DNA from: Cryobacterium sinapicolor
GTDB lineage: Bacteria > Actinomycetota > Actinomycetes > Actinomycetales > Microbacteriaceae
Assembly: GCF_004403465.1 (NCBI RefSeq)
Contig: NZ_SOGQ01000057.1
Span: 1-37,756 of the forward strand
Direction: 5' to 3'
Length of the DNA: 37,756 bases
Shown piece after piece: positions 5,204 through 31,825 of the stretch. The position numbers were made by a program, and so were the translations under genes. The notes beneath the pieces were generated by a model that was given only the letters and a program-made list of their open reading frames with translations, was not told where the DNA came from and ran no database searches. The first letter of the stretch is position 1; every line of letters begins with the position of its first letter.

Positions 5204-5611
5204 CTACAGCTCGACGTCGTCAGGAGGCATCGACGCGGGCACGATCCTGGCGGTGGTGTCCTTGCGGCGGTGGAGGTGTCCTTGGTCGGGGTCGCAGTCG
5301 CGGAACGGCCCGTTTCCTTTGTCGAAGATGACGGCGGCGTGGCGGTCCCAGTGGTTGATCCACCAGGAGGACACGGCACCGGCGTCGCCGTCCATGACGC
5401 TGGCGTCGGCTTGCATGCTGGCCTGCCAGAGGGCTTTGAACCGGGCGACGACCTCGGGGTGTAGCCACCATTGGGTGCACCACGGTGTGGGTTTGGTGCC
5501 GACGACTTCGACGGTGGCGAGGTGGCCGGTCAGCCAGTTGAGGAACATTTGGCGGACGTCGACCGGGTCCTCTTCAGGGCCGGTCGAGTCGTAGTCGTCG
5601 TGCTCAGCCAT
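5204..5611 (-). CDS. DUF4913-family protein of the conjugation operon
   Basis: 135 aa. The central part shows the Trp-rich pattern of DUF4913: WCTQWWLHPEVVARF at about 44-58, LWQAS near 61, SSWWINHWDRHAAVIF at about 81-96, then GPF and a cysteine (RDC). The N-terminus is acidic. DUF4913 genes sit close to TraG/VirD4 genes in many actinobacterial conjugative elements, but the function is unknown. The ATG at 5611 overlaps the traG-like stop by 8 nt, so it is translated with the coupling protein and may act with it. A longer open frame from 5959 runs inside traG and is a shadow. It ends the tight operon. Confidence 0.8.
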   Translation of the reverse strand: MAEHDDYDSTGPEEDPVDVRQMFLNWLTGHLATVEVVGTKPTPWCTQWWLHPEVVARFKALWQASMQADASVMDGDAGAVSSWWINHWDRHAAVIFDKGNGPFRDCDPDQGHLHRRKDTTARIVPASMPPDDVEL

Positions 5612-7346
5612 GGGCTGCGACCTCCGCTGTAGTGGTGTCGTCGGGAACCGCGACCGGTGCCGGCCTGGGGTTCGGTGTCCTGGTTGGGGTGCGGTTGATG
5701 GTGGTGGTGAGGGTTTTGTCGCGGAACCAGGGGACGGTGTTGACCATGACGGGTCGGCATTTGGAGCTGAAGACGATGGCGCGCCATTCGGGGAGGGAGC
5801 CGAGGGCGGCGATGTCGAGGGTGTTGACCTTGCGGGTGTTGGTGGAGGTGGATTGGTGGCCGTCTTTGCCGGTGGAGCTGCCGTAGGTGATTTCGTCGTG
5901 TTCGCCGATGAGGGCGGCCAGGGAGCGGAGGAAGTCGTCGTCGCCGGACCCGCCGCCAAAGACCCGGGTGGCGGCGGCGTCCCAGAGGGTCTGCCACCCG
6001 TCTTTCCCGAACGCGTCGATCGCTTGGGCCCGGGATTGGAAGTAGGAGTTGAGGATGATGCCCATCGACCCGTAGAACGAGTACACGGAGGGTAGTTCGG
6101 GCCAGCGGACGATGTTCGCGCACTCGTCGAGCTCCATCACGAGCGGGACGGGGAGACGGCCGCCGTTTCGCTGCGCGGCGGTTTCGGCGGTTTTGCAGAT
6201 GGCGCGGATGAGGGCGGTGAGGATGGCGCCGCCGGATCCTTCACCGTCTTTGGAGAGGAGCACGAGGGTGTCGGTGCTGGTGATGAACGTGGCCGGGTCG
6301 AACCGGCGGATGCCGGCCCGGTCGGTCCAGGCGAGGAGGTCGTCGTCGGCGAGGGCTGACGCCATGCGCTGCGCGGTGGCGTAGACGCTGCCTTTGGTTT
6401 TGTCGGGCCAGCTCAGGATGCCCTCGATTGTGGAGGAGGGCCCGGTTTTTCCGTGGCGGGCGAGGATCTGCTGCACGTCGTATCCCTCGGCGCGGGCGAT
6501 CCACGCGAACACCTGGGAGAGGGGTTCGTGCTCGAGGGCTGCGGCGTAGAAGAAGTACGCGAGCATGTCCCGCCCGGCGGTATCGAACTGGGAGTCCCCG
6601 CCCCGATCGGAGGCCTTCCGTGTGGAGGCCTCGAAGATCGCGGCGAGTTCCCGGGCGTCGGCGGCGCTGCGAATGTAGTCGAGCGGGTTGAACACGAAGT
6701 CAGGCTCCGGGTCCAGGCGGTAGATGCGGTTGGGGTCGAAGATGAACGCCTGCCCGTGGTCGGCACGGCCGGCGAGGGTTTCGCGGACACCGTCGACTTT
6801 GTTAGAAGTCATGATGGCGGCGCCGGGGGCTTCGAGCATGTGCCGAATCACGAGCGCGGACGTTTTCCCGCGGCCGGTGCCGAACACGTACACGCCCAGG
6901 TCCCGCCACCCCTGATACACCCACCGGTTCCGCCGCCCGACGAGGCGGCCGACCCGCTCCCCCGCCGGCAGGTTCACCGCGGCCGGGTGCAGCTGCGCCG
7001 CTTCCTTCGCCCGCAGCTTTTCCCGCAGCACCGCGGACTGCCGGGTCGTGGCCATATGCCGGAGCGCCACGTTGTTCCGCTTGATCGACGCCCATTGGGC
7101 TTGCTTGGCCAGGATGAACGCGAACAGTCCCACGGCCAGGACCAGGGCCACCACGCTCGTCCAGGTTGCCGCGGGCGGCCACGGTGCGTCCCGGAACAGG
7201 AAGTCCCCGGCGAGGGCGGCGGGGTTCCACGGATACGTCGTCCCGGTGGGGGTGATCACCGCGCCCACGTGCACGGCCACAAGCAAGGCCAGGGCGGCGA
7301 GGAGGGCGAGGAGGCCGGTCATGATGCGGGCTTTCCAGTCGATCAC
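5604..7346 (-). CDS. TraG/VirD4-type coupling ATPase of the T4SS
   Basis: 580-aa type IV coupling protein that would bring the relaxase-DNA complex to the channel and pump DNA. Two TM helices lie at about 9-30 and 62-82, with the cytoplasmic ATPase after them. Walker A is FGTGRGKTS at 155-163 and Walker B LVMELDE at 402-408. Downstream are the NSYFQSRAQ and FGGGSGDDD segments typical of TraG/TraD. The C-terminal ~40 residues are a Thr/Pro/Arg-rich tail, perhaps for substrate docking. The start is GTG at 7346 with AAGGAG about 9 nt upstream. It is one of the last genes of the operon, after the cell-wall hydrolase. All motifs are intact, so it is likely active. Confidence 0.93.
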   Translation of the reverse strand: MIDWKARIMTGLLALLAALALLVAVHVGAVITPTGTTYPWNPAALAGDFLFRDAPWPPAATWTSVVALVLAVGLFAFILAKQAQWASIKRNNVALRHMATTRQSAVLREKLRAKEAAQLHPAAVNLPAGERVGRLVGRRNRWVYQGWRDLGVYVFGTGRGKTSALVIRHMLEAPGAAIMTSNKVDGVRETLAGRADHGQAFIFDPNRIYRLDPEPDFVFNPLDYIRSAADARELAAIFEASTRKASDRGGDSQFDTAGRDMLAYFFYAAALEHEPLSQVFAWIARAEGYDVQQILARHGKTGPSSTIEGILSWPDKTKGSVYATAQRMASALADDDLLAWTDRAGIRRFDPATFITSTDTLVLLSKDGEGSGGAILTALIRAICKTAETAAQRNGGRLPVPLVMELDECANIVRWPELPSVYSFYGSMGIILNSYFQSRAQAIDAFGKDGWQTLWDAAATRVFGGGSGDDDFLRSLAALIGEHDEITYGSSTGKDGHQSTSTNTRKVNTLDIAALGSLPEWRAIVFSSKCRPVMVNTVPWFRDKTLTTTINRTPTRTPNPRPAPVAVPDDTTTAEVAAHG

Positions 7347-7422: not shown

Positions 7423-8496
7423 TTAGTTGCTGAGTTTCATGGGGTCGGTGGTGTTGGGGTCGACGGCGATGTGGACGTGGTTGCAGTCGTCGCGGAATTG
7501 CTTCATCGACAGGTCCAGGCTTACGCCGGCGTTGGCGCGGCACTGGTTCTGGCCGGCCCCGGACCCGGCGGGCATGACCGGGCTGAGTGCCTTCAGGAGC
7601 TTCAGGGCGTTGGCGTCGGCGCCGGTGGTGGGCATCCGGTCAAAGGAGTAGAAGTCGACGGCGTGCCCGCCGCCGTTCGCGAAGTGAGGTGACGCAACCC
7701 CGGCACCGAGAAGAGTCCCTGTGCAGGCCCGGTTGATGTCGGAGATCCCGACGGCGTCGAACATGTTCGTGGCCATGGTGATGACTTGCAGGATGCGCGT
7801 ATCGATGCCGCAGTTCTCCCGGGTTCTGCCGTCGGCGATCCACCGGATCTCGCGCAGGTGATCCGGCGACAAACCCGTGATCGCTCCCGCGTCGATCTTG
7901 ACCACCAGGGCCGCCGCCAACACCCGCGCGTCACTGCCAACGCCGGCCGCGCACGCTGCGTCCCCGGTCGCAAGCGCGGCTACGACCTCTTTCGCCTGGT
8001 CGTAGTAGGTCGTGTAGTGGTTCGGGTCGGCGTTGATCTGCACGGCGTGCGCCGCCGCCGTGGGCGCCAGCGTCTCCCAGTTCGGGACGGTGACGAGGCG
8101 TTGGAAGAAGAACCCAGCGGCTTGGGTGGGGTTCATGCGCTCGGCCAGGGTGCCCCAGGTGTCGCGCTGTTGGAACAGGCCGCGGGAGTCGGGTCCGACG
8201 GTGTCGCCGTAGCTGAGGTTGCGGAGCGCGGATTCGCCCATGGCAGTCATCACGGCGATGGTTTGCCCCTGCACGTTGACGCCGGCGGCCCGGCCGGCGT
8301 TCATGATCAGGGCGGCGTTGACGAGTTGGTCGCCCTGGTACCCGGCGACCGGTGTGCGTTCGGCGGCCCCCTGCGGGTTCGCCGCGACCGCGGCGCAGGC
8401 CCCGGTGCCGGGGCCGCCGCCGGTGACGAGGAGCAGCCCGGTGAAGAGGACCACGAGCAGGACCACGAGCCCGGTGCCGAGTATGCCTTTCTGCAC
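7423..8496 (-). CDS. Two-domain peptidoglycan hydrolase of the T4SS (lysozyme-like + M15-like)
   Basis: 357 aa. One N-terminal TM (about 4-25) with an outside C-terminus. Domain 1 (about 55-180) resembles lytic transglycosylases: a Glu at 88 in MGESALRN, then SRGLFQQR at 104-111. Domain 2 (about 225-350) has H278 and D281 in GHAVDFYSF and an HVH pair at 340-342, the zinc-ligand layout of M15 / VanY-like peptidases. The protein would open the thick wall locally so the transfer channel can pass, cutting both glycan and peptide. It starts at GTG three nucleotides after the VirB4 stop and has no clear ribosome site, so it probably depends on coupling. Paired cysteines in domain 2 suggest disulfides. 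Confidence 0.87.
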   Translation of the reverse strand: MQKGILGTGLVVLLVVLFTGLLLVTGGGPGTGACAAVAANPQGAAERTPVAGYQGDQLVNAALIMNAGRAAGVNVQGQTIAVMTAMGESALRNLSYGDTVGPDSRGLFQQRDTWGTLAERMNPTQAAGFFFQRLVTVPNWETLAPTAAAHAVQINADPNHYTTYYDQAKEVVAALATGDAACAAGVGSDARVLAAALVVKIDAGAITGLSPDHLREIRWIADGRTRENCGIDTRILQVITMATNMFDAVGISDINRACTGTLLGAGVASPHFANGGGHAVDFYSFDRMPTTGADANALKLLKALSPVMPAGSGAGQNQCRANAGVSLDLSMKQFRDDCNHVHIAVDPNTTDPMKLSN

Positions 8497-16983: not shown

Positions 16984-19005
16984 ATGTCCCAGAGCATAGC
17001 GCACGTACCCCATAATGCGCCCGGAATTGTGTCCGGCGTGTCTGGCGTGTCCCCCGAAGCGTGGACAGCCTGGGCTTTGACGCGCCGGATGAGTCCGCGC
17101 GATCAAGTCCGTGTGATGAAGCGCGACGCGTACGGGCGAGTGGACGAGAACAGTTACCCCCTGATCCACCGTGTTGGACCGGCTGAGCCCACGACGCCGT
17201 GGGCGATGAACTTGGCCGATGAGACCGGATTGTTCCGGGTACTGTGCTTTGACTTCGACGGTAAGGACAAGCACGGCGTTGACGCGGAGCTGATGGAGGA
17301 AGCCGTCGATGAGTGCGATGTCCTCTCCCGCACACTCGATGCCCTCTCAATCGAGCACGTCGTGTGCCAGTCCTCCGGGACGGGTGGGCGGCACATCTGG
17401 CTCGCCCTCCAGGGCGGAGCCCCGAAGCTCGCCGTCGCCCCGGTGGCCAGTGCAGCACGAGCGAACTTCCGCCGCTTGGACCACGGCATGCTCCTCAACG
17501 CGGTCACCGGTGCCGCACGGCCGCCGCTGTCCCCGCACCGCGACGGCAGCCATTCCACGGTCCTCCGCGGCAGCCTGAACACCCTGGTCACCCCGTCGAC
17601 CACGCTCGCCGACTTGGCTGCTCTGGCCGCGGTGCTCGAGGCGTGGAAGCCGTCCCTCCGCGCGGAAGACAGCGCCCCGTCGGGCCCCGTCACCCTGCGC
17701 CATCAGTCGCACCGGCGCCTCAGCACGGCCGGCACCGCCCATATGGCCACTATCGATGGCGGTAGCAACCCGAGCTGGACCGGATTCATGTGCCTGCTCT
17801 CGGCCGCGAACGCCGGCTGGCAGCTCGTCGACGTCGAGCACGCCATCAAGACCGCCCCCGGGCTGGAACACTTCCGGACGAAGAACACCGGCCGTGGATC
17901 TCGCCGGCCCCGGGCCGCAGCCGAAGCCCGAGCCCGGTTGGGCCGCCAGTGGGACAAAGCCCAGCAGTACGCCGCCCTCCAGCTCCCGCTGCCGGCGGTG
18001 CGGGAACCGCAGGACCTGTCGGAGCTGGACGCCATCGTGACCGACGTCGAAGCCCTCCTGAATCGGTTCCGGGTCAGCCCGGGCCGGTGGGGCCGCACCG
18101 AAGCGTCCTCGAATCAGCAGACCATTCTCCGCGCCCTGGCCTACCTCACCCTGCAGACCGGCAAGCGCACTGTCGCTGCCGCGATCCGCGACCTGGGCCC
18201 GATGGGCGGCCTGGGCCGCACCACCGCAGCCGACGCCCTGACCGCCCTCGCTGCTGCCGGATACGTCGAACGGGTCAGTGCGAGTGACGACGGCAACGCC
18301 GCCGAATGGCGCCTAGCCTCCACGTTATCCACAGGTCTTAGTACAGTCCGGTCACAACCACTTAATAACCCCCGCCCCCCGCACGAAATCCCGTCGTCTC
18401 CAGGTCGTTCTGCAGCTGAGCTCTTCAACACCCGCGCCTATCTCGTCGCCCTGCTCGAGGAACAACTCACCGACCAACGCCATGACCTCTTCACTCGCCG
18501 TGGCCTGGGACACCTCGCCGGCAAGCTTTACGCCCTGCTGCGCCAGCACCCGTCCCTCACCATTGACTCCGCAGCTCGTCTCCTGGGTGTTACGGCCCGG
18601 CACACTGCCACGATCCTCAGTCGCCTCCGTCGTCACAAGCTCCTCGTTGTTCACCGTGATGGGTGGGCCAGGTCGAAGCAGGATCTTCGGAACCAGGCAG
18701 CCCTGCAGCTGGGCGTGTTGGGGACACTGCTGGCTCGAGCGGAGCGGTATCGGATTGAGCGGGAGGTGTGGGCGTGGTGGCAAGCGGAACTGACGACGAT
18801 GATGTCAGCGCCGAGGTCTCGGCCGCGGCGCCCGCATGTGTCGAGCCGGCCGTTGTTTGAGGCGAGTACGCCGGGTGAGAGGGTGTGGCCGCGGTATCCG
18901 CGGGCCAGGACCAACCTCGCGGATCACCGTTCTGCGCTCGAGCTGGTGGGTGCGGGGCTGCTCAACCCGGAGAACCGGTGGCAGTACCTGGGCGAGGCAG
19001 CGTAG
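16984..19005 (+). CDS. Plasmid replication protein with primase-polymerase (AEP)-like N-terminal domain
   Basis: 673 aa. The N-terminal ~200 residues carry archaeo-eukaryotic primase marks: a metal-binding DFD at 90-92 in LCFDFDGKD, and SSGTGGRHIWL at 130-140 with the nucleotide-binding histidine at 137. The middle (about 200-330) is Ala/Arg-rich. The C-terminal part has two winged-helix-like segments, around 375-440 (TILRALAYL...RTTAADALTALAAAGYVERV) and around 505-560 (AARLLGVTARHTATILSRLRRHKL). This is the layout of prim-pol Rep proteins of actinobacterial plasmids. It would open the origin and prime DNA synthesis. GGGAGG stands 8 nt before the ATG. The preceding regulators suggest copy control. 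Confidence 0.78.
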   Translation: MSQSIAHVPHNAPGIVSGVSGVSPEAWTAWALTRRMSPRDQVRVMKRDAYGRVDENSYPLIHRVGPAEPTTPWAMNLADETGLFRVLCFDFDGKDKHGVDAELMEEAVDECDVLSRTLDALSIEHVVCQSSGTGGRHIWLALQGGAPKLAVAPVASAARANFRRLDHGMLLNAVTGAARPPLSPHRDGSHSTVLRGSLNTLVTPSTTLADLAALAAVLEAWKPSLRAEDSAPSGPVTLRHQSHRRLSTAGTAHMATIDGGSNPSWTGFMCLLSAANAGWQLVDVEHAIKTAPGLEHFRTKNTGRGSRRPRAAAEARARLGRQWDKAQQYAALQLPLPAVREPQDLSELDAIVTDVEALLNRFRVSPGRWGRTEASSNQQTILRALAYLTLQTGKRTVAAAIRDLGPMGGLGRTTAADALTALAAAGYVERVSASDDGNAAEWRLASTLSTGLSTVRSQPLNNPRPPHEIPSSPGRSAAELFNTRAYLVALLEEQLTDQRHDLFTRRGLGHLAGKLYALLRQHPSLTIDSAARLLGVTARHTATILSRLRRHKLLVVHRDGWARSKQDLRNQAALQLGVLGTLLARAERYRIEREVWAWWQAELTTMMSAPRSRPRRPHVSSRPLFEASTPGERVWPRYPRARTNLADHRSALELVGAGLLNPENRWQYLGEAA

Positions 19006-19119: not shown

Positions 19120-19282
19120 CGGCACGGTAGCGCGATGGTGGCCTTCGTGGGGATGGTGCTTCTCATCCGGTGCCCCGCCGGCCGTTGGAACCGTGCTGGT
19201 TTCAAGCGTGGCCTTGTGGGGGGACAACCCACCTGTGGTGAGCCCTGCGGGCTTGGGAACCGCTGCGCGGTCGCCTCTTGCA

Positions 19283-19436
19283 TTTTTTTATCTGTCTGGC
19301 CGTTTCACCGTAGTTCGCTTTCGTGCCTGCGTTTTGGGCTTTCGCGGCATATCCTCGCTGCGCTGCGGTATTCCACGACCCTGCACTCCGGCACTCCCGC
19401 TCTCAATCGATTTCTCTTGCCAGACAGGCAAAAAAA
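19283..19436 (+). promoter_or_regulatory. Structured ~155-bp leader element, copy 1 (before ParB-like gene)
   Basis: Terminal arms TTTTTTTATCTGTCTGGC (19283-19300) and GCCAGACAGGCAAAAAAA (19419-19436) pair at 16 of 18 positions plus one G-T. Inside are GTGCC and GGCAC, which also pair, and blocks shared with copies 2 and 3: TAGTTCGCT, GTGCCTGCGTT, CACTCCGGCACTCCCG and ATCGATTTCTCTTGCCA. A weaker central hairpin (GGGC...CGCGG with CCACGACCC, then GGCATATCC with GGTATTCC) occupies the variable middle. It ends 23 bp before the ParB-like start. It is a candidate structured RNA leader or single-stranded-DNA promoter. Confidence 0.8.
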
Positions 19437-19459
19437 TCAGTTGATGGAGAGAGAACCCA

Positions 19460-20872
19460 ATGATTAACACCACCGCCACCGTCACTGTAGGCACCATCGA
19501 GCACATTGACCCCAACCTCATCGTCGTGGAAGCGAACGTGCGCTCTGAGGCTGCGCTGGGCCGGGAGTTCGTGGCCAGCATCAAGGCAAACGGTGTTCTG
19601 ACGCCGATCCTCGCGCGCCGCGACGACCAGGGCAACATCATCGTCCGTGCTGGTCAGCGCCGCACCCTCGCCGCCCGTGAGGCCGGACTGGTGACCATTC
19701 CGGCGTACATCGTTGCCGCCGACGAGACGACCGTGGAGCGAATCGTGCAGCAGATGGCCGAGAACGATCACAGGGAGGCCGTCACCGACGCCGATCGGGT
19801 GGCCGCGTTCCAGCAGCTTGCTTTCGAGGGTCTGACTCCCGCCGTGATTGCCAAGCGATTGGGCAGCAAGCCTGCCACAGTCAAGGCAGGAATCGCTGTC
19901 GCAGAGAACGCCGTCGCAGCATCCGCCATCGTCAGCCACTCCCTGACTCTTGACCAGGCAGTCACACTGATCGAGTTCGAAGGTGACGATGAAACCGTGT
20001 CCGGGCTCATCGACATAGCAACCACTGCCCCGGAGAAGTTCGCCCACGCAGCACAGCGCGCCCGCGACGAGGCACGGATCGAATCGATCAAGGCGACCGC
20101 GACCGCTGACCTGATCGAGCGTGGCTACGAAATTCTTGATCGTGACCGTGGATCCTACGAAACCGACTACGTCAGCATCAGCTACCTGAGCACCGCGGAC
20201 GGCGAACAGGTCACCGTGCCGCACCTCACCGATGCGGTGGGCCGGGCCGCGTACGTGCACGCCTACGCCAGTAGCGACACGGCCTTCGTGCGCTACTACC
20301 TGAAAGACCCCAAGGCCGCAGGATTTCGCAAGTGCAGCGGAAGTGGAGCCAGCAGCGGCCCGATGACCGACGACGAGAAGGCCGAACGCAAAACCCTCAT
20401 CGCCAATAACAAGGCGTGGGCCAGCGCCGAGGTCGTGCGCCGCGAATGGTTGGCCGAGTTCCTCAGCCGCAAGACCCTCCCCAAGGACACTGCCAAAGCC
20501 ATCGCACTAGGCCTGACCGTGCACCATAGTGTTGTCGGCAAAGCCAACCAGAACGGCAACGTCCTCGCCCACACCCTCCTCGGCTTGGAGCGGGCCAACT
20601 ACTGGTCCGCGGACACGCTCTCCGCACTGGTGGAGCACTCCCCCACCAAGGCGCAGCATGTCACGCTGACCATCGTGCTGGCAGGCATCGAGGACAGCAC
20701 CAGCAAGGAAAAGTGGCGCTACCCGGACGCCCACAACGCCCGCTACTTCGAGCAGTTGGCCGGATGGGGCTACAACCTCAGCGAGGTCGAGCAGATCGTC
20801 ATCGACACAGTCGCCGAGAAGGCAGCCACCAAGGCAGCCGAGGCCAACGCCGCCACGCTCACACAGGGCTAA
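19460..20872 (+). CDS. ParB/Spo0J-like protein without a ParA partner
   Basis: 470 aa. The N-terminal ParB/Srx domain (about 18-110) shows ANVRSEAALGREFVASIKANGVLTPILARR and the nucleotide-binding AGQRRTLAA. A helix-turn-helix follows at about 125-150 (GLTPAVIAKRLGSKPATVKAG). The long C-terminal part (about 200-460) is mostly helical and unrecognised. No parA adjoins it; the real partition pair is at 26923-28256. It therefore resembles the ParB-like (YubM-type) proteins of conjugative leading regions more than a segregation ParB; this is inference from context. GGAGAGA precedes the ATG by about 7 nt, and the string TGGAGAGAGAACCC is shared with the DUF3846 gene at 26149. A strong terminator follows. 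Confidence 0.82.
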   Translation: MINTTATVTVGTIEHIDPNLIVVEANVRSEAALGREFVASIKANGVLTPILARRDDQGNIIVRAGQRRTLAAREAGLVTIPAYIVAADETTVERIVQQMAENDHREAVTDADRVAAFQQLAFEGLTPAVIAKRLGSKPATVKAGIAVAENAVAASAIVSHSLTLDQAVTLIEFEGDDETVSGLIDIATTAPEKFAHAAQRARDEARIESIKATATADLIERGYEILDRDRGSYETDYVSISYLSTADGEQVTVPHLTDAVGRAAYVHAYASSDTAFVRYYLKDPKAAGFRKCSGSGASSGPMTDDEKAERKTLIANNKAWASAEVVRREWLAEFLSRKTLPKDTAKAIALGLTVHHSVVGKANQNGNVLAHTLLGLERANYWSADTLSALVEHSPTKAQHVTLTIVLAGIEDSTSKEKWRYPDAHNARYFEQLAGWGYNLSEVEQIVIDTVAEKAATKAAEANAATLTQG

Positions 20873-20885
20873 CCTCGCCCCAAGC

Positions 20886-20929
20886 CCCGGCGTGACAGTC
20901 CCCCACTGTCACGCCGGGCCTTTTCTGTT
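20886..20929 (+). terminator. Strong intrinsic terminator of the ParB-like gene
   Basis: CCCGGCGTGACAGT (20886-20899), loop CCCCC, ACTGTCACGCCGGG (20905-20918), a perfect 14-bp stem followed by CCTTTTCTGTT. It stands 14 nt after the stop codon. Confidence 0.92.
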
Positions 20930-20991
20930 CCCAGACCCTGGTACGGAAGCCAGAGCCTAAAAACGACCAGGCACCCGTCCCTTCGGGCCGT

Positions 20992-21017
20992 GACGGAACA
21001 GCGGCGCAGCCGCCGTC
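20992..21017. repeat. GACGGAAC-hairpin repeat, left copy
   Basis: GACGGAACAGCGGCG followed by CA and GCCGCCGTC. A close copy stands at 21709-21733, so the two flank the membrane-protein gene 21036-21590. Each can fold into a GCGGC/GCCGC hairpin. It may serve as a terminator for the minus-strand gene, or be a small dispersed repeat. Confidence 0.5.
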
Positions 21018-21035
21018 TCCCCGCTAACGGAAACG

Positions 21036-21590
21036 CTAGGCGGCAGGGGTAGTACGACGCGGTGAGAGGGTTCGATCGCCTGAAGCGGCAGTCACGAGGA
21101 AGAAGAGTGTGAATCCGGTAACGACGAAATTGCCGACGACTGCCAGCAGTCCCCCAAGCAAGGCGGGATGCGCGGTAAAAATCGCGGCCAAGGAAACAAG
21201 AAGGGTCAATGAATTTCGCACCAATTTCCCCCGATGATTTGTCAGCATGAAGACTCCGTTGCTGACTAGTAGCACTGTGGCGCTGAGCGCCCACGCGCTA
21301 GCGGTTTCACCAATATCGCCCGGCCACACAAACAGAGCCGCTACTGAAAGACCGAAAACGAAAACGGCAAGAATCCAACAAGCCCAGGCGATGATCTTCG
21401 GTAGCGCGCGCACGGTACGGGTTAGTGCCGCGACAAGAACACGAGCGGAAACGGCAATAATCCAACTGGCCCATGTGACGATTTGGCGCACCGCGCGCAC
21501 CGCGCGGGTTCGCCGGCCACCGGCAGTATTCTCGGCGGCTGTCGCGAGGTGAGTTTCGGCCAATGTGCTGGGGCCCGCAGGTGTGGTCAT
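21036..21590 (-). CDS. Small integral membrane protein, unknown function
   Basis: 184 aa from the ATG at 21590 (MTTPAG...). About five hydrophobic segments: two short ones within a repeated pattern (ALRQIVTWASWIIAV-like and LPKIIAWACWILAV, about 20 residues apart in style), then GLSVAALFVW, ALSATVLLVSNGVFML, and two near the C-terminus. The resemblance of IVTWASWIIAV to IIAWACWILAV suggests an internal duplication. The tail is basic. No ribosome site is clear, and a start at 21632 is possible. It is the only minus-strand gene between rep and the partition genes, flanked by a pair of hairpin repeats, so it may be a separate insertion. Confidence 0.6.
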   Translation of the reverse strand: MTTPAGPSTLAETHLATAAENTAGGRRTRAVRAVRQIVTWASWIIAVSARVLVAALTRTVRALPKIIAWACWILAVFVFGLSVAALFVWPGDIGETASAWALSATVLLVSNGVFMLTNHRGKLVRNSLTLLVSLAAIFTAHPALLGGLLAVVGNFVVTGFTLFFLVTAASGDRTLSPRRTTPAA

Positions 21591-21708
21591 AATGCGATGA
21601 TATGGCCGGTGAGGTGCCCGAAATGCGTGCACTGATCTCTATTACTCGCTCCATCGATGTGCCTATCGCCCAAGGACCAATCAAGAGAAGGGGAACGTTT
21701 AGGGGCGC

Positions 21709-21733
21709 GACGGAACGGCGGCGAGCCGCCGTC
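21709..21733. repeat. GACGGAAC-hairpin repeat, right copy
   Basis: GACGGAACGGCGGC, GA, then GCCGCCGTC; ACGGCGGC and GCCGCCGT pair perfectly with a 2-nt loop. It differs from the copy at 20992 by about two changes. It lies about 135 bp upstream of the IF2N-domain gene. Confidence 0.5.
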
Positions 21734-21867
21734 CACAGCCGAGCACCTGTCCAATGTTGTCCGGTGCCCCTTCCTCTGCTTCCCCTCATTGAACAGGAAC
21801 GGGTAGGACCGTCACCCGCCGGTAGCCTGAGACTAAATTCCAACGGGGGGAACGGGGTGGCCGGCTA

Positions 21868-23841
21868 ATGTCCGCGAAACCGAGAGTGCACGAGATCGCC
21901 AGAGAGTTCGGGGTGGACGCGAAGATCGCCCTCCGAATACTGAAGGAGGACGGAGTGTTCCTCAAAGGACCGAGCAGCTCGATGGAGCCGCCCGTCGCAA
22001 GACGACTCCGCGCCCGGCTCCAAGCCGAGGGCCACACTCAGCAGAACCCGCAAGCACCGACACCAACCACGCCGCGGCCACTCGTCCCCGCGCTGGGACG
22101 CCCTGTCCCTGCGCCCCCGGGAACCCGCTGGAAAGCCACGGAACCATTCGTCGCGTACATCAACGCGAAGCCCCCGGCGCCAGCTTCCGCAGCGCCCCCT
22201 GCCCCGCCTCGTCGCGTGCGCTCGCGCCCAGGAGACGGCGTCCCCGAGGCTACTCCGCGCCGAGGGACCGGCGTCGCCCATGAAGTCGCCCCATCCGTGC
22301 GAGAGGCGCGCAGGATCAAGGAGGCTAAAAAGGCCGCAAAGCGGGAAGCTGACTTCCAGCTCGCAGCGCCCGAGGCTCGACGAGCGGCCGCAGCCAGGGC
22401 GGAAGAGATCGCCCGGCGCGGGCGGGAGAAAATGGTGCTCGCGCTGGCCAACCAGGCGGGGCAGGCGTCACGGCCGCCGCGCCCTCGCGTCGCCCGGCCC
22501 GTGCGCGACCTCTCACTGGAGGAGACGCGCGCCGTGGTCCGGCGGGGCATTGTCACCCGGCGGGACGGGAAATGGGAGGCGTATGGGATTGGGTTGCAGG
22601 AGCGTCAGGGATGGGAGAAGGCGGGGCTCGGCTACTTCCAGGCTCACATCCCCGCCATGTGCCGGTCCTTCGGCTCGCCCAGGGCGGCCGTCACGGCCAA
22701 GCACCTGCACGTGTTGCTCCCGAGTGGTCTCACCGTGCAGCAGGCGTTCGAGGCTGGAGACAACATCGTCCAAGTGATGGACCAGCTCGCCGCAGTCACC
22801 GATCGCTCATTCAGCAGCGCCTTCGGAGCCCGGGCCGCCGCGGTCGTCCCCGTGCTGCGGGAGGCCCCGCCCAAGAAGTCCCACGTCGTCGCGTCGTCGC
22901 CGGGAGCCATGGATGCCGCGGGCGTGCCCAGTCTCTCCACCTTGCTCATCCGCGCCACCCGACCTTCGCCAAGCGAGCAGACAGTCGACGCGTTCAATCG
23001 AGAGCGCAAGCAGTTCGACCGGACGGGACACCCAGGCCCCCTGGTCAAACTGTACGCAGAGGCGCACGGGATCTTCGATGACATGAACCTCACCCGGAGG
23101 CTTCTCCAGAACGTGCCCCCACACGTGGTCATGAGGGTGCAACGACTGCCGCTCGTGAACCTCATCGCTGACGCCCTGCGCGAGCGCCAGTTCTACTACC
23201 TGTCGCGCACGGCAACCGCGGCCGTCGAGGCGGACGCCGACCCGCGCATCCCGATCCCCGAGGAGTACGACCTGCCCACGCCCACCGGGTTTGCCCTCCT
23301 CAGGGACACGGATATGGACGGGCAGCCCGCGGGCCGGATTCTCCTCTGGAGTCACGGCGCGCGCGAGTTGACCGCTGCGATCGTGTCTGTGGCGGATCTC
23401 GCCGCCGGGCTGACGGAGTTCCCGAACGTCCGGACGGCTCCCATCGGCTCGGTGGGGAACGCGGATGCCGCGCTCGCCCTGGTCGCAGCGATTGGGGCGG
23501 CGACCCGGCGCCCACCCGGGGATCTGGACACGGGGGCGCGGGAGGCCCCGCGGAGGCTGCCCGGGGGGATGGTCAAGCCGCGGCCGCGGAAGCCTCTCGT
23601 TGACGAGGCGGGAGACCTGGTCGATTTCGTCTCGCTGATCTATGCACCGGGGGAGGCGCACTTCGAGGAGTCGCAGGCGACGGGCAGGAAGGCGGAGAAG
23701 CGGTGGGTTGTCCGCGGGCATTGGCGCCAGCAGTGGTATTCGTCCACTGGGGAGCGGCACCCTTTGTGGATCAAGGCGCACGAGGCGGGCGCTGACGAGG
23801 GAGAACTGCTGACGGGTGATCGCGTGCGGGTCAACCGGTAG
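21868..23841 (+). CDS. Large protein with IF-2 N-terminal (IF2N) domain and unknown body
   Basis: 657 aa. Residues 1-50 match the IF2N module of translation factor IF-2: [44 protein letters not shown] Pro/Ala/Arg-rich linker (about 55-150) and a charged helical stretch (about 140-195, with [17 protein letters not shown]) follow. The rest (about 210-657) is a folded part I cannot name; its end [22 protein letters not shown] has a Trp/His-rich pattern I associate with actinobacterial plasmid and phage proteins. There are no GTPase motifs, so it is not IF-2. A role at the ribosome or in binding nucleic acid is possible but unproven. The ATG follows an upstream G-rich stretch (GGGGTGG, about 8 nt away). 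Confidence 0.75.
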
Positions 23842-24341
23842 GCCGCCAATAAACGATTGGCTGGTGTTGGTTGCTCTCTCTCACAGCGCCCAATGGGAAT
23901 CTACTTTGCCGACGTAGCATACGACTCAGTTTTCATGACCCTACGGGGTAGACGGAATGGCTCACCGGGCAGCGCTGGTCAGCGGCGGGCGCACCGTCGC
24001 GACATTGCAGGTGGACTCGACCGGTACTACCCCAAGGGCCACGAAGCTCTGCGTACCCGGATTGCTGAGACAGGCGCGGTACCTCCGAAATCAGCTTCGG
24101 ACAAAGCCTCACCCGGTACCGGTTCCTTATGCGAAACCGGTTGATCGCGGCCGCCGCCCGCGCAACCGTCGTGACGGAAGCCAGCCAACGTTCGGGATCC
24201 TTGAATATAGCGACCCTCGCCTTCACAATCGCCTGTCCCGTGGGCGGGTGCCGTCCCCGGCCCGGTCACGTCCCCGATCCGAGAGTTCGGCGCACAACTC
24301 GTCGTGAACGCTGAGGAAGTCGCCGTCTCTAGGCCGGGCCG
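23842..24341. other. Non-coding stretch, no convincing gene
   Basis: About 500 bp between the IF2N-domain gene and a palindrome cluster. Short open frames exist on both strands but have no ribosome sites, and they are rich in Arg/Pro, as expected of shadow frames in GC-rich DNA. There is no strong repeat. It may be part of a transfer or replication origin together with the cluster that follows. Confidence 0.5.
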
Positions 24342-24446
24342 CCGGCCAGCTCACGAGCTGGCCGGGGACGGGGAAATCGCCCTCGCACTCCCCCACAGCG
24401 GAATATCAGAGTGATGTCACTCTGATAGTGCGACGGCGAAGCCGTC
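24342..24446. repeat. Cluster of three palindromes; candidate oriT or protein-binding origin site
   Basis: Palindrome 1: CCGGCCAGCTC (24342-24352), AC, GAGCTGGCCGG (24355-24365). Palindrome 2: TATCAGAGTGA (24404-24414), TG, TCACTCTGATA (24417-24427). Both have perfect 11-bp arms and a 2-nt centre. Palindrome 3: GACGGC, GAA, GCCGTC (24432-24446). They are followed 42 bp later by leader element copy 2. No T-run follows palindromes 1 or 2. Confidence 0.65.
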
Positions 24447-24488
24447 AAAGGCGACATGGAGCCGCTGCGCGGCACTGATTGTTGAGCA

Positions 24489-24640
24489 TTTTTGTCCTAT
24501 CTGGCCAATCATCGTAGCTCCCTTGCGTGCCTGCGTTACCCGCAGTGCCGGACGCGCCCTGCGGGCTTATTTCGCCCGGCACTGTGGGCACTTCGGCACT
24601 CCCGGTCGCTCTCGATTTCTTTTGCCAGACAGGCCAAAAA
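24489..24640 (+). promoter_or_regulatory. Structured ~155-bp leader element, copy 2 (before Cys-rich/DUF3560 genes)
   Basis: Terminal arms TTTTTGTCCTATCTGGC (24489-24505) and GCCAGACAGGCCAAAAA (24624-24640) pair at 15 of 17 positions. The inner stem GTGCC/GGCAC is kept. The central hairpin is strong: CCCGCAGTGCCGG pairs with CCGGCACTGTGGG (24539-24551 with 24576-24588; one G-T), and GCCC-TGC-GGGC sits inside it. Shared blocks: CCAATCATCGTAG, GTGCCTGCGTTACCCGCA, CGGCACTCCCG and CTCGATTTCT. It ends 29 bp before the next ATG. Confidence 0.82.
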
Positions 24641-24669
24641 AACAGTTGTTCACGAAGAGAAGAGATCCC

Positions 24670-24822
24670 ATGGCTGAGTCCGATTACCGGTACGAGAACA
24701 CCTACCCGAGGGAGTGCTACGCGGACGGGTGCGCCTGCAGCGGGTGCACCTCGGAAGGGGCCGTAGATACCCAGCCCGGAGAAACCTGCACCGCGACCCG
24801 CTACGCCGACAGCTTCGCCTAA
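24670..24822 (+). CDS. 50-aa cysteine-rich peptide
   Basis: 50 aa starting MAESDYRYENTYPRE, with cysteines at 16, 21, 23, 26 and 40, including the compact CACSGC. It may bind a metal, or be a small structural or regulatory peptide. It is acidic with several tyrosines. It directly follows leader copy 2 and stands 18 nt before the DUF3560 gene, so the two are probably co-transcribed. GAAGAGAAGAG supplies a ribosome site. I do not recognise a family. Confidence 0.65.
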   Translation: MAESDYRYENTYPRECYADGCACSGCTSEGAVDTQPGETCTATRYADSFA

Positions 24823-24840
24823 TCGAGGGACAAAAAAATC

Positions 24841-25773
24841 ATGCTCACCATCACCCACAGCCACGCCGCCGGAACCATGATCGACGGCACCGGTAAAGGC
24901 GACGGAACCGCCGACGTTCTCAAGAGCGTTGGTTGGCGTTGGGGGCGCAGCATCAGCGCCTGGTTCGTCCCCCAGTCCCGCGACCGCCTCCCCAAAATCC
25001 ACACCATCACCCGCACCCAGGAGGCCTTGGAAGCGGCCGGATTCCAGGTCGAAACCGACATCGACCACGAGCGACGCACGACCGCCGAGGTTGAAGCCGG
25101 AAAGATCGGACGTCAGGCCGACCGGGTCGACGCTCTGGCCGCGAAGGCCGACCGCAAGAGCACGGCCAGCGACGACGCGTGGACCCGCGCCCGGAGCGCG
25201 CTTGACCGCCTGCCCGAAGGAGGAGAACCGATCAAAGTCGGCCACCACTCCGAAGGCCGCCACCGCAACGCGATCGCCAAAGCAGATAGCGCCATGCGTA
25301 AATCAGTTGAAGCCAGCGCCGACGCCACCCACGCCCATGCAAGGGCCGACGCGGCCACGCACACCACCGACGCCCGCTACCGGCCCGTCACCGTGGCCAA
25401 CCGCATCGACACCTTGGGGGCTGAGCTGCGCAAGTTAGAACGGCGCATCGCCCCGTGCTACGACGACGCACAAGGCTACGTCGACGCCACCGACGCCCAG
25501 AAGCAGGCCCGAGCAGACCACCTCGCACCGAACCTCGCCGAGAATCGCGACCAGATCGCGTACTGGGAAGCCGTGCGCGCCGCCCAGATCGAGAGCGGCA
25601 CGGCCACCGGTTACGACCGCAGCACCGTCAAGAAGGGTGACCGGGTGAAGATCCGCGGCCAGTGGCGCGAAGTCGTCCGCGCCAACCCCAAGACCGTCAG
25701 CGTCAGCACCGGCTACACCTGGACCGATACCGCCCCGTATGCGGAGATCCAGCAGCACCAGCGGCCCGAATAA
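24841..25773 (+). CDS. DUF3560-family protein
   Basis: 310 aa. The N-terminus (LTITHSHAAGTMIDGTGKGDG, then WRWGRSISAWFVPQSRDRLP) matches the start of DUF3560 proteins. The middle (about 75-180) is a charged, Ala-rich helical region with HHSEGRHRNAIAKAD near 135, a His-rich segment typical of the family. The C-terminus has a small beta domain, KKGDRVKIRGQWREVVRANPKTVSVSTGYTW, like a KOW/SH3 fold. DUF3560 occurs mostly on actinobacterial plasmids and phages; its function is unknown. It is the second gene after leader copy 2. GAGGGA lies 11 nt before the ATG. A GC hairpin follows the stop. Confidence 0.82.
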   Translation: MLTITHSHAAGTMIDGTGKGDGTADVLKSVGWRWGRSISAWFVPQSRDRLPKIHTITRTQEALEAAGFQVETDIDHERRTTAEVEAGKIGRQADRVDALAAKADRKSTASDDAWTRARSALDRLPEGGEPIKVGHHSEGRHRNAIAKADSAMRKSVEASADATHAHARADAATHTTDARYRPVTVANRIDTLGAELRKLERRIAPCYDDAQGYVDATDAQKQARADHLAPNLAENRDQIAYWEAVRAAQIESGTATGYDRSTVKKGDRVKIRGQWREVVRANPKTVSVSTGYTWTDTAPYAEIQQHQRPE

Positions 25774-25783
25774 CTGCCGCGGA

Positions 25784-25807
25784 GGCCGGCCCACCCCGGG
25801 GCCGGCC
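25784..25807 (+). terminator. GC hairpin after the DUF3560 gene
   Basis: GGCCGGCCC (25784-25792), loop, GGGCCGGCC (25799-25807): a perfect 9-bp stem 10 nt after the stop. There is no T-run. A second hairpin with the shared CACTCCCCCACC tail follows at 25811. Confidence 0.65.
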
Positions 25808-25810
25808 GCC

Positions 25811-25845
25811 GTGAGGGGGACGGTGCCCCCTCACACTCCCCCACC
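25811..25845 (+). repeat. GTGAGGGG hairpin with CACACTCCCCCACC tail, copy 1
   Basis: GTGAGGGGG, ACGGTG, CCCCCTCAC, then ACTCCCCCACC. Nearly the same unit stands at 26603-26635 after the DUF3846 gene. A partial one (CCCTCGCACTCCCCCAC, 24380-24396) stands before leader copy 2. It is probably a recurring transcription-end or module-boundary signal. Confidence 0.6.
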
Positions 25846-25912
25846 AGGTGAATCCGGCCTGGAGGCCGGACACACACGGAGCCGGCTGCGCCGGCCTGCC
25901 TCTTTCAAAACA

Positions 25913-26069
25913 TTTCTTCCCTTGGTGGCCAATCATCGTAGTTCGCTCCTGTGCCTGCGTTACCCGCACTCTCGCACGCGGTCGCAGGCTCCCTTATTTC
26001 GCACGAGAGTGAGGGCACTCCGGCACTCCCGCTCTCAATCGATTTCTCTTGCCACCAAGGGCAGAAAAA
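25913..26069 (+). promoter_or_regulatory. Structured ~155-bp leader element, copy 3 (before DUF3846 gene)
   Basis: Terminal arms TTTCTTCCCTTGGTGGC (25913-25929) and the region GCCACCAAGGGCAGAAA (26051-26067) pair at 16 of 17 positions, though eight bases of the stem differ in sequence from copies 1 and 2. Central hairpin: CCCGCACTCTCG (25963-25974) with CGAGAGTGAGGG (26004-26015), 11 of 12 paired, again with both arms changed relative to copy 2. The GTGCC/GGCAC stem and the blocks CCAATCATCGTAG, GTGCCTGCGTTACCCGCA and CACTCCGGCACTCCCG are shared. It lies 79 bp before the DUF3846 start. Confidence 0.83.
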
Positions 26070-26148
26070 CGGTGGACGACAACACAACCACTGCCCACGA
26101 GAGAGCTCGGGACCCCGCGCACCTCACCAACCTTGGAGAGAGAACCCC

Positions 26149-26568
26149 ATGATCACCAGCATCCGCAGCGTCAAGATCAACCCGACCGAAACCATCACCA
26201 CCCTGGACGTGAACGAGGCCAGCATCGGGGCGGACATCAGCGCCGCCATCGGCTGCCGAATGTTCGACGTCGTCGGCCTGCAAGACGACATCGACCTCTT
26301 CGTCGATGACGAAGGCCTCATCAACGGGTCAACCCTGAACCTGCCCGCGACCGTGCTCGCCCACCGACTCGGCTCCCGCACCGTCATCTTCGGTACCGCC
26401 ATCGCCGTCAGCGTCACCCAAGACGGTGAAACCGTCGGCCTCACCGACGCCCAGCTCGCCCGAATCCAAGAATCTCTCGCGCAGAAGCCCGACGCCCGGA
26501 CCGTCGACACCCTCGTTGAGAGCCTCTCCCCGTTCCCCACCGTGGTGAGCATGCTTCGCAACATCTAG
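26149..26568 (+). CDS. DUF3846-family protein
   Basis: 139 aa. The sequence TTLDVNEASIGADISAAIGCRMFDVVGLQDDIDLFVDDEGLINGSTLNLPATVLAHRL and the later VIFGTAIAVS follow the DUF3846 pattern: an acidic strand IDLFVDDEG, then a Leu-Pro turn, then a GTAI/GPAL strand. The C-terminal third (about 100-139) is helical. DUF3846 proteins are small plasmid- and phage-borne proteins without a firm function. The string TGGAGAGAGAACCCC just before the ATG is nearly the same as that before the ParB-like gene, so the whole upstream unit seems to have been duplicated. It has its own terminator hairpin. Confidence 0.83.
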   Translation: MITSIRSVKINPTETITTLDVNEASIGADISAAIGCRMFDVVGLQDDIDLFVDDEGLINGSTLNLPATVLAHRLGSRTVIFGTAIAVSVTQDGETVGLTDAQLARIQESLAQKPDARTVDTLVESLSPFPTVVSMLRNI

Positions 26569-29995: not shown

Positions 29996-30697
29996 ATGTG
30001 CGGCAGATTCGTGGTTCCCAGCACCACCGACCAATTGCTGAGCGTCTTCGACGCCACCGGCGACAACGCCGCCGAGTGGAAGCCCTCGTACAGTGTTGCC
30101 CCCACGGATCCGGCGCCGGTCGTGCGCGAGTGGATCCACGACGAAACAGTTCAGCGTGACCTGGACTTGGCCTCGTGGGGGTTGAAGCCGGGTTGGGCGA
30201 AGCCGGGTGGCCCGGCCCCCATCAACGCACGCCTGGAATCGGTGGCCAGTAACGGCATGTTCCGAAGCGCGTTTGCCAGCCAACGGTGCCTGGTGCCCAT
30301 GGCCGGCTACTACGAGTGGCAGCAGATGGACGACGGCAAACAGCCCTACTTCATCCACAGCGAAGGCGATGTGCTGGCGGCGGCCGGCCTGTACGCGGCC
30401 CGCCAAGAAGATGACGTGTGGAAGATCTCGTTCACGATCATCACCCGCGCAGCGCGCGACGCGTCCGGTGAAATCCACGACCGGATGCCCGTGTTCTTGA
30501 CCCCGGACGTGTGGGACCAGTGGCTGCGCCCGGAGAAGGTCACCGACAAGGAGGAAGTCCTCTCGATGCTGGACCGTAGCTCAGTTGCAGTCGCCAAGAC
30601 TGTGACGGCGTATCCGGTGGCACGGACGGTCAACAGTGTTCGTATGCTCAACCGTGAAGATCCTGATCTCATCGAACCTGCGGCGACAAGGGGATAG
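29996..30697 (+). CDS. SOS-response-associated peptidase (SRAP; YedK/HMCES family)
   Basis: 233 aa. MCGR at the N-terminus gives the catalytic Cys2, exposed when Met is removed, which forms a thiazolidine crosslink with abasic sites in single-stranded DNA. Other family residues are present: NAR at 77-79, GYYEW with Glu107, and HDRMP with His161. The length is normal. The protein shields ssDNA abasic sites during replication. On a conjugative plasmid, which enters as ssDNA, that is a sensible cargo. The start is certain because the Cys must follow Met. A G-rich ribosome site (GGGGGAG) lies slightly far upstream. Confidence 0.93.
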   Translation: MCGRFVVPSTTDQLLSVFDATGDNAAEWKPSYSVAPTDPAPVVREWIHDETVQRDLDLASWGLKPGWAKPGGPAPINARLESVASNGMFRSAFASQRCLVPMAGYYEWQQMDDGKQPYFIHSEGDVLAAAGLYAARQEDDVWKISFTIITRAARDASGEIHDRMPVFLTPDVWDQWLRPEKVTDKEEVLSMLDRSSVAVAKTVTAYPVARTVNSVRMLNREDPDLIEPAATRG

Positions 30698-30738: not shown

Positions 30739-31473
30739 CTACTTCATGCTGAGTTCGTCGGCTTCTTCACCGTCGAGTGTTCCGACAAGTTCAGCGATCT
30801 TCACGACGATGTCCTTCATAGACTCCTCCGCCGTGCTGAATCCACCACGCGACGCGAGGGTAGGGCTGACCTGGTCAAGCTCCTCAAAGGTCGCACCATG
30901 CATGACCGGCACTAGGAGGTTGCGGCGCAGCAGAGCGCTGAGCTCGTTGCTCGCGATGCTTCGATCGGTGCGCAGTTTGTCGAGCATGGCGGGCGTCACC
31001 AGAACGATCCCGATGCGCGAATTCACGAGCCCCTTATCGATCGCTACGCGCATGTCCGTGCCGGGCCTCAGTGTCACCTCGCTGAACCACACCGAAACGT
31101 CTTCATCGACGAGCAAGTCGTAGACGTCTTTCGCGTCGGCCTGACGGTCGGGCCAGGCGTGGCAGAGGAACACGTCGTGCGCCTGCGTTCGGACCACGAC
31201 CGCCGTGCGTACGGGCTCGAGGTCGCGCACCTGCTGCGGCGTGTAGGAGACAGTTGAGGTCCTAGGCGACCAAGTGGGACGGGTGGTGCTGCCTCCACTA
31301 CGCCCAGCTCCGCTGCTCGTCAAGCTTCCACTCCTGACAACAGAGGTGACCGGCGGCGGCGAGTACCGCGGGTACGACGGCGTCGAGTAGTTGTATCCAC
31401 TGCGTCCGTGAACGGGGCAGTCGGCGCCGCCGCCCCTGGTGTGGCCTCTGACGGGGGCTGTGCACTGGGACAT
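30739..31473 (-). CDS. TIR-domain protein with N-terminal Cys/His motif
   Basis: 244 aa from the ATG at 31473 (GGAAG 8-9 nt upstream). Residues 4-22 carry C4, H11, C19 and H22 (CTAPVRGHT..., ADCPVHG), a small possible zinc knuckle. Residues 25-90 are Ser/Pro/Thr-rich and disordered. The TIR domain (about 98-240) reads AHDVFLCHAWPDR, VSVWFSEVTLRPGTDMRVAIDKGL, IGIVLVTPAML, then SNELSALL with Glu177 at the place of the catalytic glutamate of NAD-cleaving TIRs. It may act as an NADase effector in anti-phage defence. It lies divergent from an R-M pair, which supports a defence role. The sensor is not evident. Confidence 0.83.
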   Translation of the reverse strand: MSQCTAPVRGHTRGGGADCPVHGRSGYNYSTPSYPRYSPPPVTSVVRSGSLTSSGAGRSGGSTTRPTWSPRTSTVSYTPQQVRDLEPVRTAVVVRTQAHDVFLCHAWPDRQADAKDVYDLLVDEDVSVWFSEVTLRPGTDMRVAIDKGLVNSRIGIVLVTPAMLDKLRTDRSIASNELSALLRRNLLVPVMHGATFEELDQVSPTLASRGGFSTAEESMKDIVVKIAELVGTLDGEEADELSMK

Positions 31474-31825
31474 ACTTTGGTCTTCCTTGGAACCTTGCGC
31501 CGTGGCCCAAGAGGCCTTTCCGACGAGCCGTCTGCGGGCATTTCGGGTGATGAGTCGAACTCTATGTGCAACCGCCGACATTGCCACTCGTCGCAAGTCG
31601 CGCTACTTTACTGCGATAGGTCGATTTGAGGGCTGCTAGCTCGCCCGGTGTACTCCTTCTATGGTTTTGAAACCGTTCGTATTTCTGGCCGGTCTAGTTC
31701 AACCACGAGGCAGCCCGTCCGAAATCGATCGTTCGCGGACCGCTGATTGTTTTCCTTGGCTGGCCGCACCGCTCCTTCGCGGGGCGCCGTCAACGCGGCG
31801 TGGAGATTTGCCAGAGAATGGCTAC
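31474..31825. promoter_or_regulatory. Divergent intergenic region between TIR and methyltransferase genes
   Basis: About 350 bp. The methyltransferase frame stays open to 31661 upstream of the chosen start, but that part (LVQPRGSPSEIDRS...) is unlike the family and is treated as non-coding. Both promoters must lie here; none is clear. No repeat is seen. Confidence 0.4.

Follow-up and report, generated by a model that had tools for sequence, protein, structure and literature searches.

Structured elements before plasmid genes of Cryobacterium sinapicolor appear to belong to a new family of Frpo-like single-stranded DNA promoters

The present analysis concerns contig NZ_SOGQ01000057.1 of Cryobacterium sinapicolor (C93 below), which was analysed over its whole length of 37,756 bases (the window) and is part of a draft genome of 3.53 Mb. 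The contig carries a ParA/ParB pair, a gene for a coupling protein of conjugation and three structured elements, each of which lies directly upstream of genes on the plus strand. Element 1 stands before a ParB-like gene, element 2 before a small open reading frame (ORF) and a gene for a DUF3560 protein, and element 3 before a gene for a DUF3846 protein (Table 1). An earlier note had described the three elements with their common blocks and pairing arms, and they were re-found in the sequence where it had placed them. The pairings that it gave also agree with ours: the outer stem is CTGTCTGGC/GCCAGACAG in element 1 and CTTGGTGGC/GCCACCAAG in element 3, and the inner hairpin is CAGTGCCGG/CCGGCACTG in element 2 and CACTCTCG/CGAGAGTG in element 3. 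Four further copies were found on contig C92 of the same genome, and covariance model R1 was built from the seven copies of C93 and C92.

The search with R1 found the family in 33 of the 57 genomes of the genus, and in a sample of the bacterial family in 46 of 299 genomes, belonging to 22 of 85 genera. Because of the four copies on C92 and the matches across the bacterial family, the elements are not a product of chance. A covariance model had been proposed as the check on them, and copies do recur before plasmid genes, with 163 elements collected from 51 loci. There were 192 matches, from which 28 reverse-strand echoes were dropped. Of the 164 left, 163 entered the working list (150 aligned and 13 added by hand); the missing one (L100 6863-7009) duplicates L017 23253-23399. 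The folds were made for 162 elements, without one that a contig end truncates. Both the 163 and the 162 include two more L100 elements that duplicate those of L017 and so count double. A non-redundant set of 41 copies was chosen greedily at less than 45% shared 8-mers, and the 51 loci were chosen from contigs with many copies or copies of mixed orientation. The elements are about 155-180 nt long, with up to seven on one contig (G026:C2). A nucleotide search of a plasmid collection gave ten records (four Cryobacterium, two Herbiconiux and one each of Mycetocola, Arthrobacter, Clavibacter and Rathayibacter), four of them typed as non-mobilizable; the Arthrobacter plasmid carries the element outside the bacterial family. 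Element 2 had no match in the phage collection. With model R2, matches were found in 8 of 396 genomes of an order sample (six in the family, and two weak partial matches outside it, in G568 and G629) and in 1 of 396 genomes of a phylum sample, the window's own; both counts are underestimates because the filters were strict and at most 7 candidates were scored per genome.

The genes behind the elements are of establishment type. When the chosen next ORF was compared with annotated plasmid proteins, the 163 elements were followed by DUF3846 (35), DUF3560 or its 50-aa ORF (25), ParB-like (22), DprA (19), a family of 217-aa proteins (17), NrdH/glutaredoxin (14), SSB (8) and ArdC-like genes (3); four other small families account for 9, 10 had no assignment and 1 lay past a contig end. 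SSB, DprA and ArdC are proteins that handle single-stranded DNA or counter restriction. The chosen start codon lies a median of 30 nt past the base of the stem, and within 40 nt in 103 of 162 elements. The count of Shine-Dalgarno motifs was not used as evidence, since the choice of start favours starts with such a motif. As a separate observation, the 217-aa family (L013 34070-34723 and relatives) has no Pfam match and is a candidate establishment protein.

The earlier note had argued that the paired arms are the signature of a selected fold, and this was borne out by covariation. In the 150-row alignment (146 distinct rows, the best 150) 42 of the 46 pairs vary on both sides. The covariation score was 0.277 against 0.091 (standard deviation 0.003) in shuffles, a value that is not an R-scape significance and comes from an alignment fitted to the model; when the partners were slid it was 0.030-0.067.

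The note had left the choice between RNA and single-stranded DNA, and this choice can now be narrowed. In 41 of the 41 non-redundant copies the gene's template strand folds better than its coding strand, with DNA as well as RNA parameters. In the window the DNA folds of the minus and plus strands are -26.1 and -22.5 kcal/mol for element 1, -40.8 and -34.6 for element 2, and -36.3 and -31.2 for element 3. The mean difference of template minus coding strand in the 41 copies was -6.45 kcal/mol with DNA and -15.1 with RNA parameters (Wilcoxon p 2.4e-8). Composition explains part of this difference, as dinucleotide shuffles retain some of it: against them the mean z was -1.6 for DNA (38 of 41 below the shuffled mean) and -2.0 for RNA. 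Among random 170-nt windows of the same loci folded as DNA there was no such one-sidedness, with 151 of 291 favouring the minus and 136 the plus strand. The thiamine pyrophosphate (TPP) riboswitches of the genus (20 places) favoured the coding strand in 18 of 20 with DNA and 17 of 20 with RNA parameters; the cyclic di-AMP riboswitch, sought as another RNA control, was found in 0 of 21 genomes.

A structured RNA leader, that is, a cis-regulatory mRNA element or attenuator transcribed from a double-strand promoter further upstream, would also explain covarying elements that stand directly upstream of genes and on the gene's strand. The coding strand does fold better than its shuffles (mean z -2.7 for DNA, -3.9 for RNA), as such a leader would. 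Selection for an mRNA leader should favour the coding strand and permit G.U pairs, and the opposite was found: in every non-redundant copy the coding strand folds less well, the reverse of the TPP riboswitches. In the 35 non-redundant copies that lie in the 150-row alignment, plus-strand A.C (equivalent to G.T on the template) exceeded G.U by 25 to 5 pairs and 61 to 19 cells. This structure was derived from folding of the minus strand, and the count was therefore repeated on others; A.C to G.U was 17 to 4 pairs and 28 to 18 cells in an RNA structure derived from the plus strand, and 17 to 2 pairs and 27 to 6 cells among the pairs common to both structures, so that the excess was seen in most tests. 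Searches against Rfam gave no match for the window at the gathering threshold, and none for 19200-26200 at E <= 1. An RNA leader is very unlikely. What is conserved is the fold of the gene's template strand and not that of the mRNA strand, which, along with the -10 box described below, favours single-stranded DNA.

Small hairpins next to the elements point in the same direction. RNA hairpins are not known to gain much from GNA loops. A triloop hairpin lies within 60 nt before the element in 31 of the 41 copies; with a stem of 5, 22 copies have a GNA triloop on the template strand and no copy has one on the coding strand, while 4 have another loop and 15 lack such a hairpin. Elsewhere in the loci of single orientation, 847 hairpins included 91 with GNA on the template strand, 51 with GNA on the coding strand and 705 others. 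The comparison of stem 5 with stem 5 gave Fisher values of 2.7e-4 for the strand and 4e-17 for the frequency. In the apical hairpin GNA was on the template strand in 10 of the 13 copies with a triloop, and on the coding strand in none. Loops of this type form very stable mini-hairpins in DNA (PMC6479982), and for an RNA leader they lie on the wrong strand. The extent of about 155 bp that had been given for the elements is too short in this respect, since a GC mini-hairpin shortly before belongs to most copies.

The 3' arm of the template strand contains a promoter-like box. The hexamer was taken to be the first TANNNT within the final 50 nt, and it was present in 162 of 162 elements, as TACGAT in 104, TACGGT in 36 and eight others in the rest (ten hexamers). 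It should be noted here that T, A and T are invariant by this selection, because the first TANNNT was taken; the evidence lies in its presence in every copy and in the aligned flanks. AGCGA before the box agrees per base in 34 to 41 of the 41 copies, while position -8 is variable (A 26, G 14, T 1). The match to a -35 at the best spacing of 15-19 nt was weak, with a mean of 2.93 of 6 against 2.51 (standard deviation 0.10) when shuffled; the commonest bases 17 nt before the box are GGAACG. In the consensus structure the 5' arm is paired with the last four bases of the box, and an internal loop separates these from the outer stem. In single folds of the three window elements the A at -11 is always unpaired; the consensus form is seen in element 3, the loop of element 2 gains two pairs, and element 1 pairs locally instead. 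A promoter in the coding sense with TTGCCA as its -35 was dropped, as no -10 box fits it (TANNNT in 0 of 41 within the last 75 nt). Nor is coding-sense TANNNT enriched in the 80 nt before the element (5 found, 13.8 expected), where an RNA leader would need its promoter.

In double-stranded DNA the TANNNT box points away from the gene. This outward direction, along with the better folding of the minus strand with RNA parameters too, would suit an antisense RNA that is made from the minus strand, folds as seen and controls the gene. A transcript starting from this box could not fold as the element does, since the box is inside the 3' arm and the 5' arm would be absent from it, so that another promoter would be required; and the GNA loops are of a kind known to stabilise mini-hairpins of DNA (PMC6479982). 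We consider an antisense RNA extremely unlikely.

The orientation of the elements to the transfer genes is regular. Elements and relaxase gene have the same strand in 18 of the 18 contigs of the genus that carry both (10 with PF03432, 8 with PF08751). A conserved inverted repeat, both arms of which differ between plasmids, stands upstream of mobC and is followed by TATAGCTTGCTC. Known origins of transfer (oriT) have an inverted repeat 5' of the nick, and we infer from this layout that the repeat with TATAGCTTGCTC is a putative oriT of MobC type, its nicked strand included. The elements are opposite the putative nicked strand in 11 of 11 contigs that have both the motif and elements (36 elements), and the transferred strand (T-strand) would then be their template. 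The motif was found on 14 contigs of the genus, ten with elements and four without (G022:C21, C62 and C79, and G036:C53). In the window it has one match with two mismatches, at a chance level of 0.89. For the oriT of MOBF type upstream of mobF no nick site was assigned in the two plasmids considered. The agreement between the strands of element and relaxase fits the statement that relaxase genes typically lie in the lagging region (PMC11541004).

Given the computed fold, covariation, template preference, -10 box, gene set and orientation to the relaxase gene and the putative oriT, it is very probable that each element is a single-stranded DNA promoter, similar to Frpo, for establishment genes on actinobacterial plasmids that are conjugative or mobilizable, and that it serves early expression in conjugation. 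The identity of the T-strand, the use by RNA polymerase, the start site and the transience we infer as follows. During conjugation the T-strand, here the minus strand, would enter the recipient and fold at each element into a long imperfect hairpin. Its 3' arm would act as the non-template strand and present TANNNT, in most copies TACGAT, as a -10 box, preceded by a weak -35-like region at some 15-19 nt, while the 5' arm, continuous with the gene, would be the template. The internal loop between the box and the outer stem could be a bubble that is partly formed beforehand. RNA polymerase would initiate close to the GCC of the outer stem, pass out through that stem and go on to read the ribosome site and then the gene. 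Synthesis of the complementary strand would abolish the hairpin and leave the boxes facing away from the gene, so that expression would stop by itself.

The same fold and -10 box would also suffice for a single-strand initiation site that recruits RNA polymerase or primase for priming, with expression of the gene a side effect or absent; Frpo of F is a site of both transcription and primer synthesis, to judge by the title of Masai and Arai 1997. The number of copies, up to seven on one contig and mostly shortly before a start codon, exceeds the need for priming, and this explanation is very unlikely.

Several results weigh against a single-stranded DNA promoter. The oriT and the nicked strand come from the layout, and as neither C92 nor C93 has a match to the relaxase families PF03432 and PF08751, the T-strand of the window is derived from relatives. 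In a DNA structure derived from the plus strand (ten pairs) the excess of A.C was not seen (6 pairs to 3, cells 9 to 14). Frpo of F, folded as a control, had the same sign weakly over 341 nt with DNA parameters (-72.4 minus, -71.6 plus; with RNA parameters -151.8 and -143.9), and a piece of 241 nt had the opposite sign with DNA parameters (-36.7 minus, -40.5 plus). The weak -35 has no fixed best spacing, which is 17 nt in 13, 19 in 12, 18 in 8, 16 in 5 and 15 in 3 of the 41 copies. In cargo plasmids the element genes are far from the relaxase gene, and "leading region" is then not always literal. Furthermore, 16 of the 51 loci hold copies in both directions (15 in the working list, and L100 through its missing copy, L100 being the same plasmid as L017), a fraction that is not a population frequency because the loci were chosen by hand for many or mixed copies. 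One T-strand could not serve all the copies of such a locus; for an RNA leader, copies in both directions on one contig would be unproblematic. Nine contigs of the genus with mixed directions had no match to PF03432 or PF08751, in a relaxase search that covered these nine. Seven mixed loci (L086, L087, L088, L090, L093, L094 and L095) share a layout with SSB and the 217-aa gene in one direction and DprA in the other, and no match to the two relaxase families was found on their contigs of 74 to 514 kb; other mixed loci have glutaredoxin copies facing the rest, or divergent pairs. The mixed-locus copies within the non-redundant set likewise have the template strand as the better folder, and all the full-length ones listed retain the -10 box. 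With single-stranded DNA promoters, mixed loci would call for a second source of single strands, or decaying copies, or another stage.

The early promoters of phage N4 are likewise used by a polymerase that reads a template-strand hairpin, but they are short, serve a phage polymerase on supercoiled double-stranded DNA and are not conjugative. The single-stranded DNA promoters Frpo and ssi of F, ColIb-P9 and related plasmids are established (PMC9849209, PMC11541004), and they resemble the present elements in being repeated non-coding hairpins before leading-region genes. In Frpo and ssi the transferred strand is the template and the fold rebuilds the -10 and -35; in the present elements the putative T-strand would likewise be the template, and the fold would present a -10 box with a weak -35. 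The box would point to the gene in the single-stranded fold and points away from it in double-stranded DNA, as in the logic of Frpo (PMC9849209), and SSB, ParB-like and antirestriction genes are found in the leading region of F as well. The differences lie in the length of about 155-170 nt, the TANNNT box, the conserved AGCGA and the GNA features, in the hosts, which are Actinomycetota, and in the copies before DprA, DUF3560, DUF3846 and NrdH. In a comparison limited to F, model R2 had no match of sequence or structure in the leading region (44-70 kb) at E <= 10. The remark that no named motif matches stands for the sequence and does not stand for the kind, since the elements would work like Frpo/ssi promoters. 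EGeRS1 of the pLS20 family of Bacillus plasmids is similar in that several structured conserved regions stand directly before establishment operons with no strong normal promoter, and differs in its length of 400-600 bp from the 155-180 nt seen here (PMC8708921). Its authors regarded an explanation by single-stranded DNA promoters as highly unlikely: the strand transferred there is the non-template one, and no promoter is seen in the fold (PMC8708921). Here the transferred strand, as the layout suggests, would be the template, and a -10 box is present. Candidates have been sought in a Streptococcus island as well (PMC11541004). In the available text of four publications on such promoters (PMC9849209, PMC11541004, PMC8708921, PMC12826799) no description for Actinomycetota was found, "actinobac" is absent from the main texts of PMC11541004 and PMC12826799, and the matches listed by literature searches included no paper on such elements in actinobacteria.

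The elements appear to form a new family, in plasmids of actinobacteria, of single-stranded DNA promoters that resemble Frpo, with several lines of computed support and no detected homology to Frpo. It is rather likely, with less assurance than the promoter function itself, that the family arose independently of Frpo in conjugative plasmids of actinobacteria as a DNA-only fold (template hairpin, AGCGA-TANNNT, C-GNA-G mini-hairpins) whose promoter is directed to the gene in single-stranded and reversed in double-stranded DNA, that it drives a zygotic regulon of DprA, SSB, ParB-like, ArdC-like, DUF3560 and DUF3846 genes, and that some loci use both orientations by way of a further source of single strands.

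Table 1. Coordinates of the elements, their parts and associated genes in the window, and of putative oriT sites in related plasmids
Feature	Position	Strand	Remarks
VirD4/TraG-type coupling protein (conjugation gene)	5604..7346	-	Pfam PF12696, 3.3e-25
GC mini-hairpin, GCA loop (C-GNA-G type)	19260..19270	- (template)	before element 1
Element 1	19276..19446	minus fold taken as functional	R1 match; before ParB-like gene
-10 box TACGGT	19307..19312	-	3' arm of element 1
-35 position AAAACG, weak	19330..19335	-	17 nt before -10 box of element 1
Predicted transcription start region	19419	+	element 1; 41 nt before ATG
ParB_N-domain protein, 470 aa	19460..20872	+	Pfam PF02195, 5.8e-9
GC mini-hairpin, GCA loop	24462..24472	- (template)	before element 2
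Element 2	24482..24651	minus fold taken as functional	before 50-aa ORF and DUF3560
-10 box TACGAT	24511..24516	-	element 2
-35-like GTAACG	24534..24539	-	17 nt before -10 box of element 2
Predicted transcription start region	24624	+	element 2; 46 nt before ATG
Small ORF, 50 aa	24670..24822	+	first after element 2; homologues behind element in other plasmids
DUF3560 protein, 310 aa	24841..25773	+	Pfam PF12083, 2.2e-17
GC mini-hairpin, GCA loop	25882..25894	- (template)	before element 3
Element 3	25906..26078	minus fold taken as functional	before DUF3846
-10 box TACGAT	25935..25940	-	element 3
-35-like GTAACG	25958..25963	-	element 3
Predicted transcription start region	26051	+	element 3; 98 nt before ATG
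DUF3846 protein, 139 aa	26149..26568	+	Pfam PF12957, 2.6e-15
Putative MobC-type oriT	L011 6150-6220; L109 18870-18940; L077 150-215		inverted repeat and TATAGCTTGCTC

Some further observations were made in the neighbourhood. A hypothetical protein without a Pfam match is encoded directly before the element cluster (16984-19005, plus strand), and proteins of 630-670 aa are similarly placed in other plasmids (L011 19655-21607, L012 15589-17601, L013 31328-33340, L014 16170-18092). Those in a similar position in L087 and L099 have a weak match to nSTAND_NTPase5, below the cut-off. The 673-aa neighbour protein gave no convincing match to a solved structure; these 630-670-aa proteins are possibly replication initiators or regulators. 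By eye, a remnant that resembles the end of the DprA gene of C92 was seen before element 2 (23950-24310), without an element of its own. Palindromes of the type ATCAGAGTGATNTCACTCTGA, perhaps operators, were likewise noticed before elements in the window (24405-24427) and in L009 (about 7905-7925 and 7985-8005). Two elements stand back to back about 126 nt apart and face outward in L102 (9231-9711) and L103 (9364-9843), with an ArdC-like gene on one flank and, in L102, a gene for an integrase-family protein on the other. Further along the window there is a protein starting with MCGRF (29996-30697, plus strand), which we take to be SRAP-like, and adjoining it one that presumably resembles a TIR domain (30739-31596, minus strand). 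An Eco57I-type methylase lies near both (31661-33484), and the group is perhaps a defence or anti-defence cluster.

If these elements are indeed single-stranded DNA promoters, early expression from the entering strand would have arisen more than once. The family would then be a comparative handle, at the level of single bases, on the initiation of RNA polymerase on a folded single strand. The genes behind the elements, like DUF3560, DUF3846 and the 217-aa family, would in turn be candidates for establishment or anti-defence genes.

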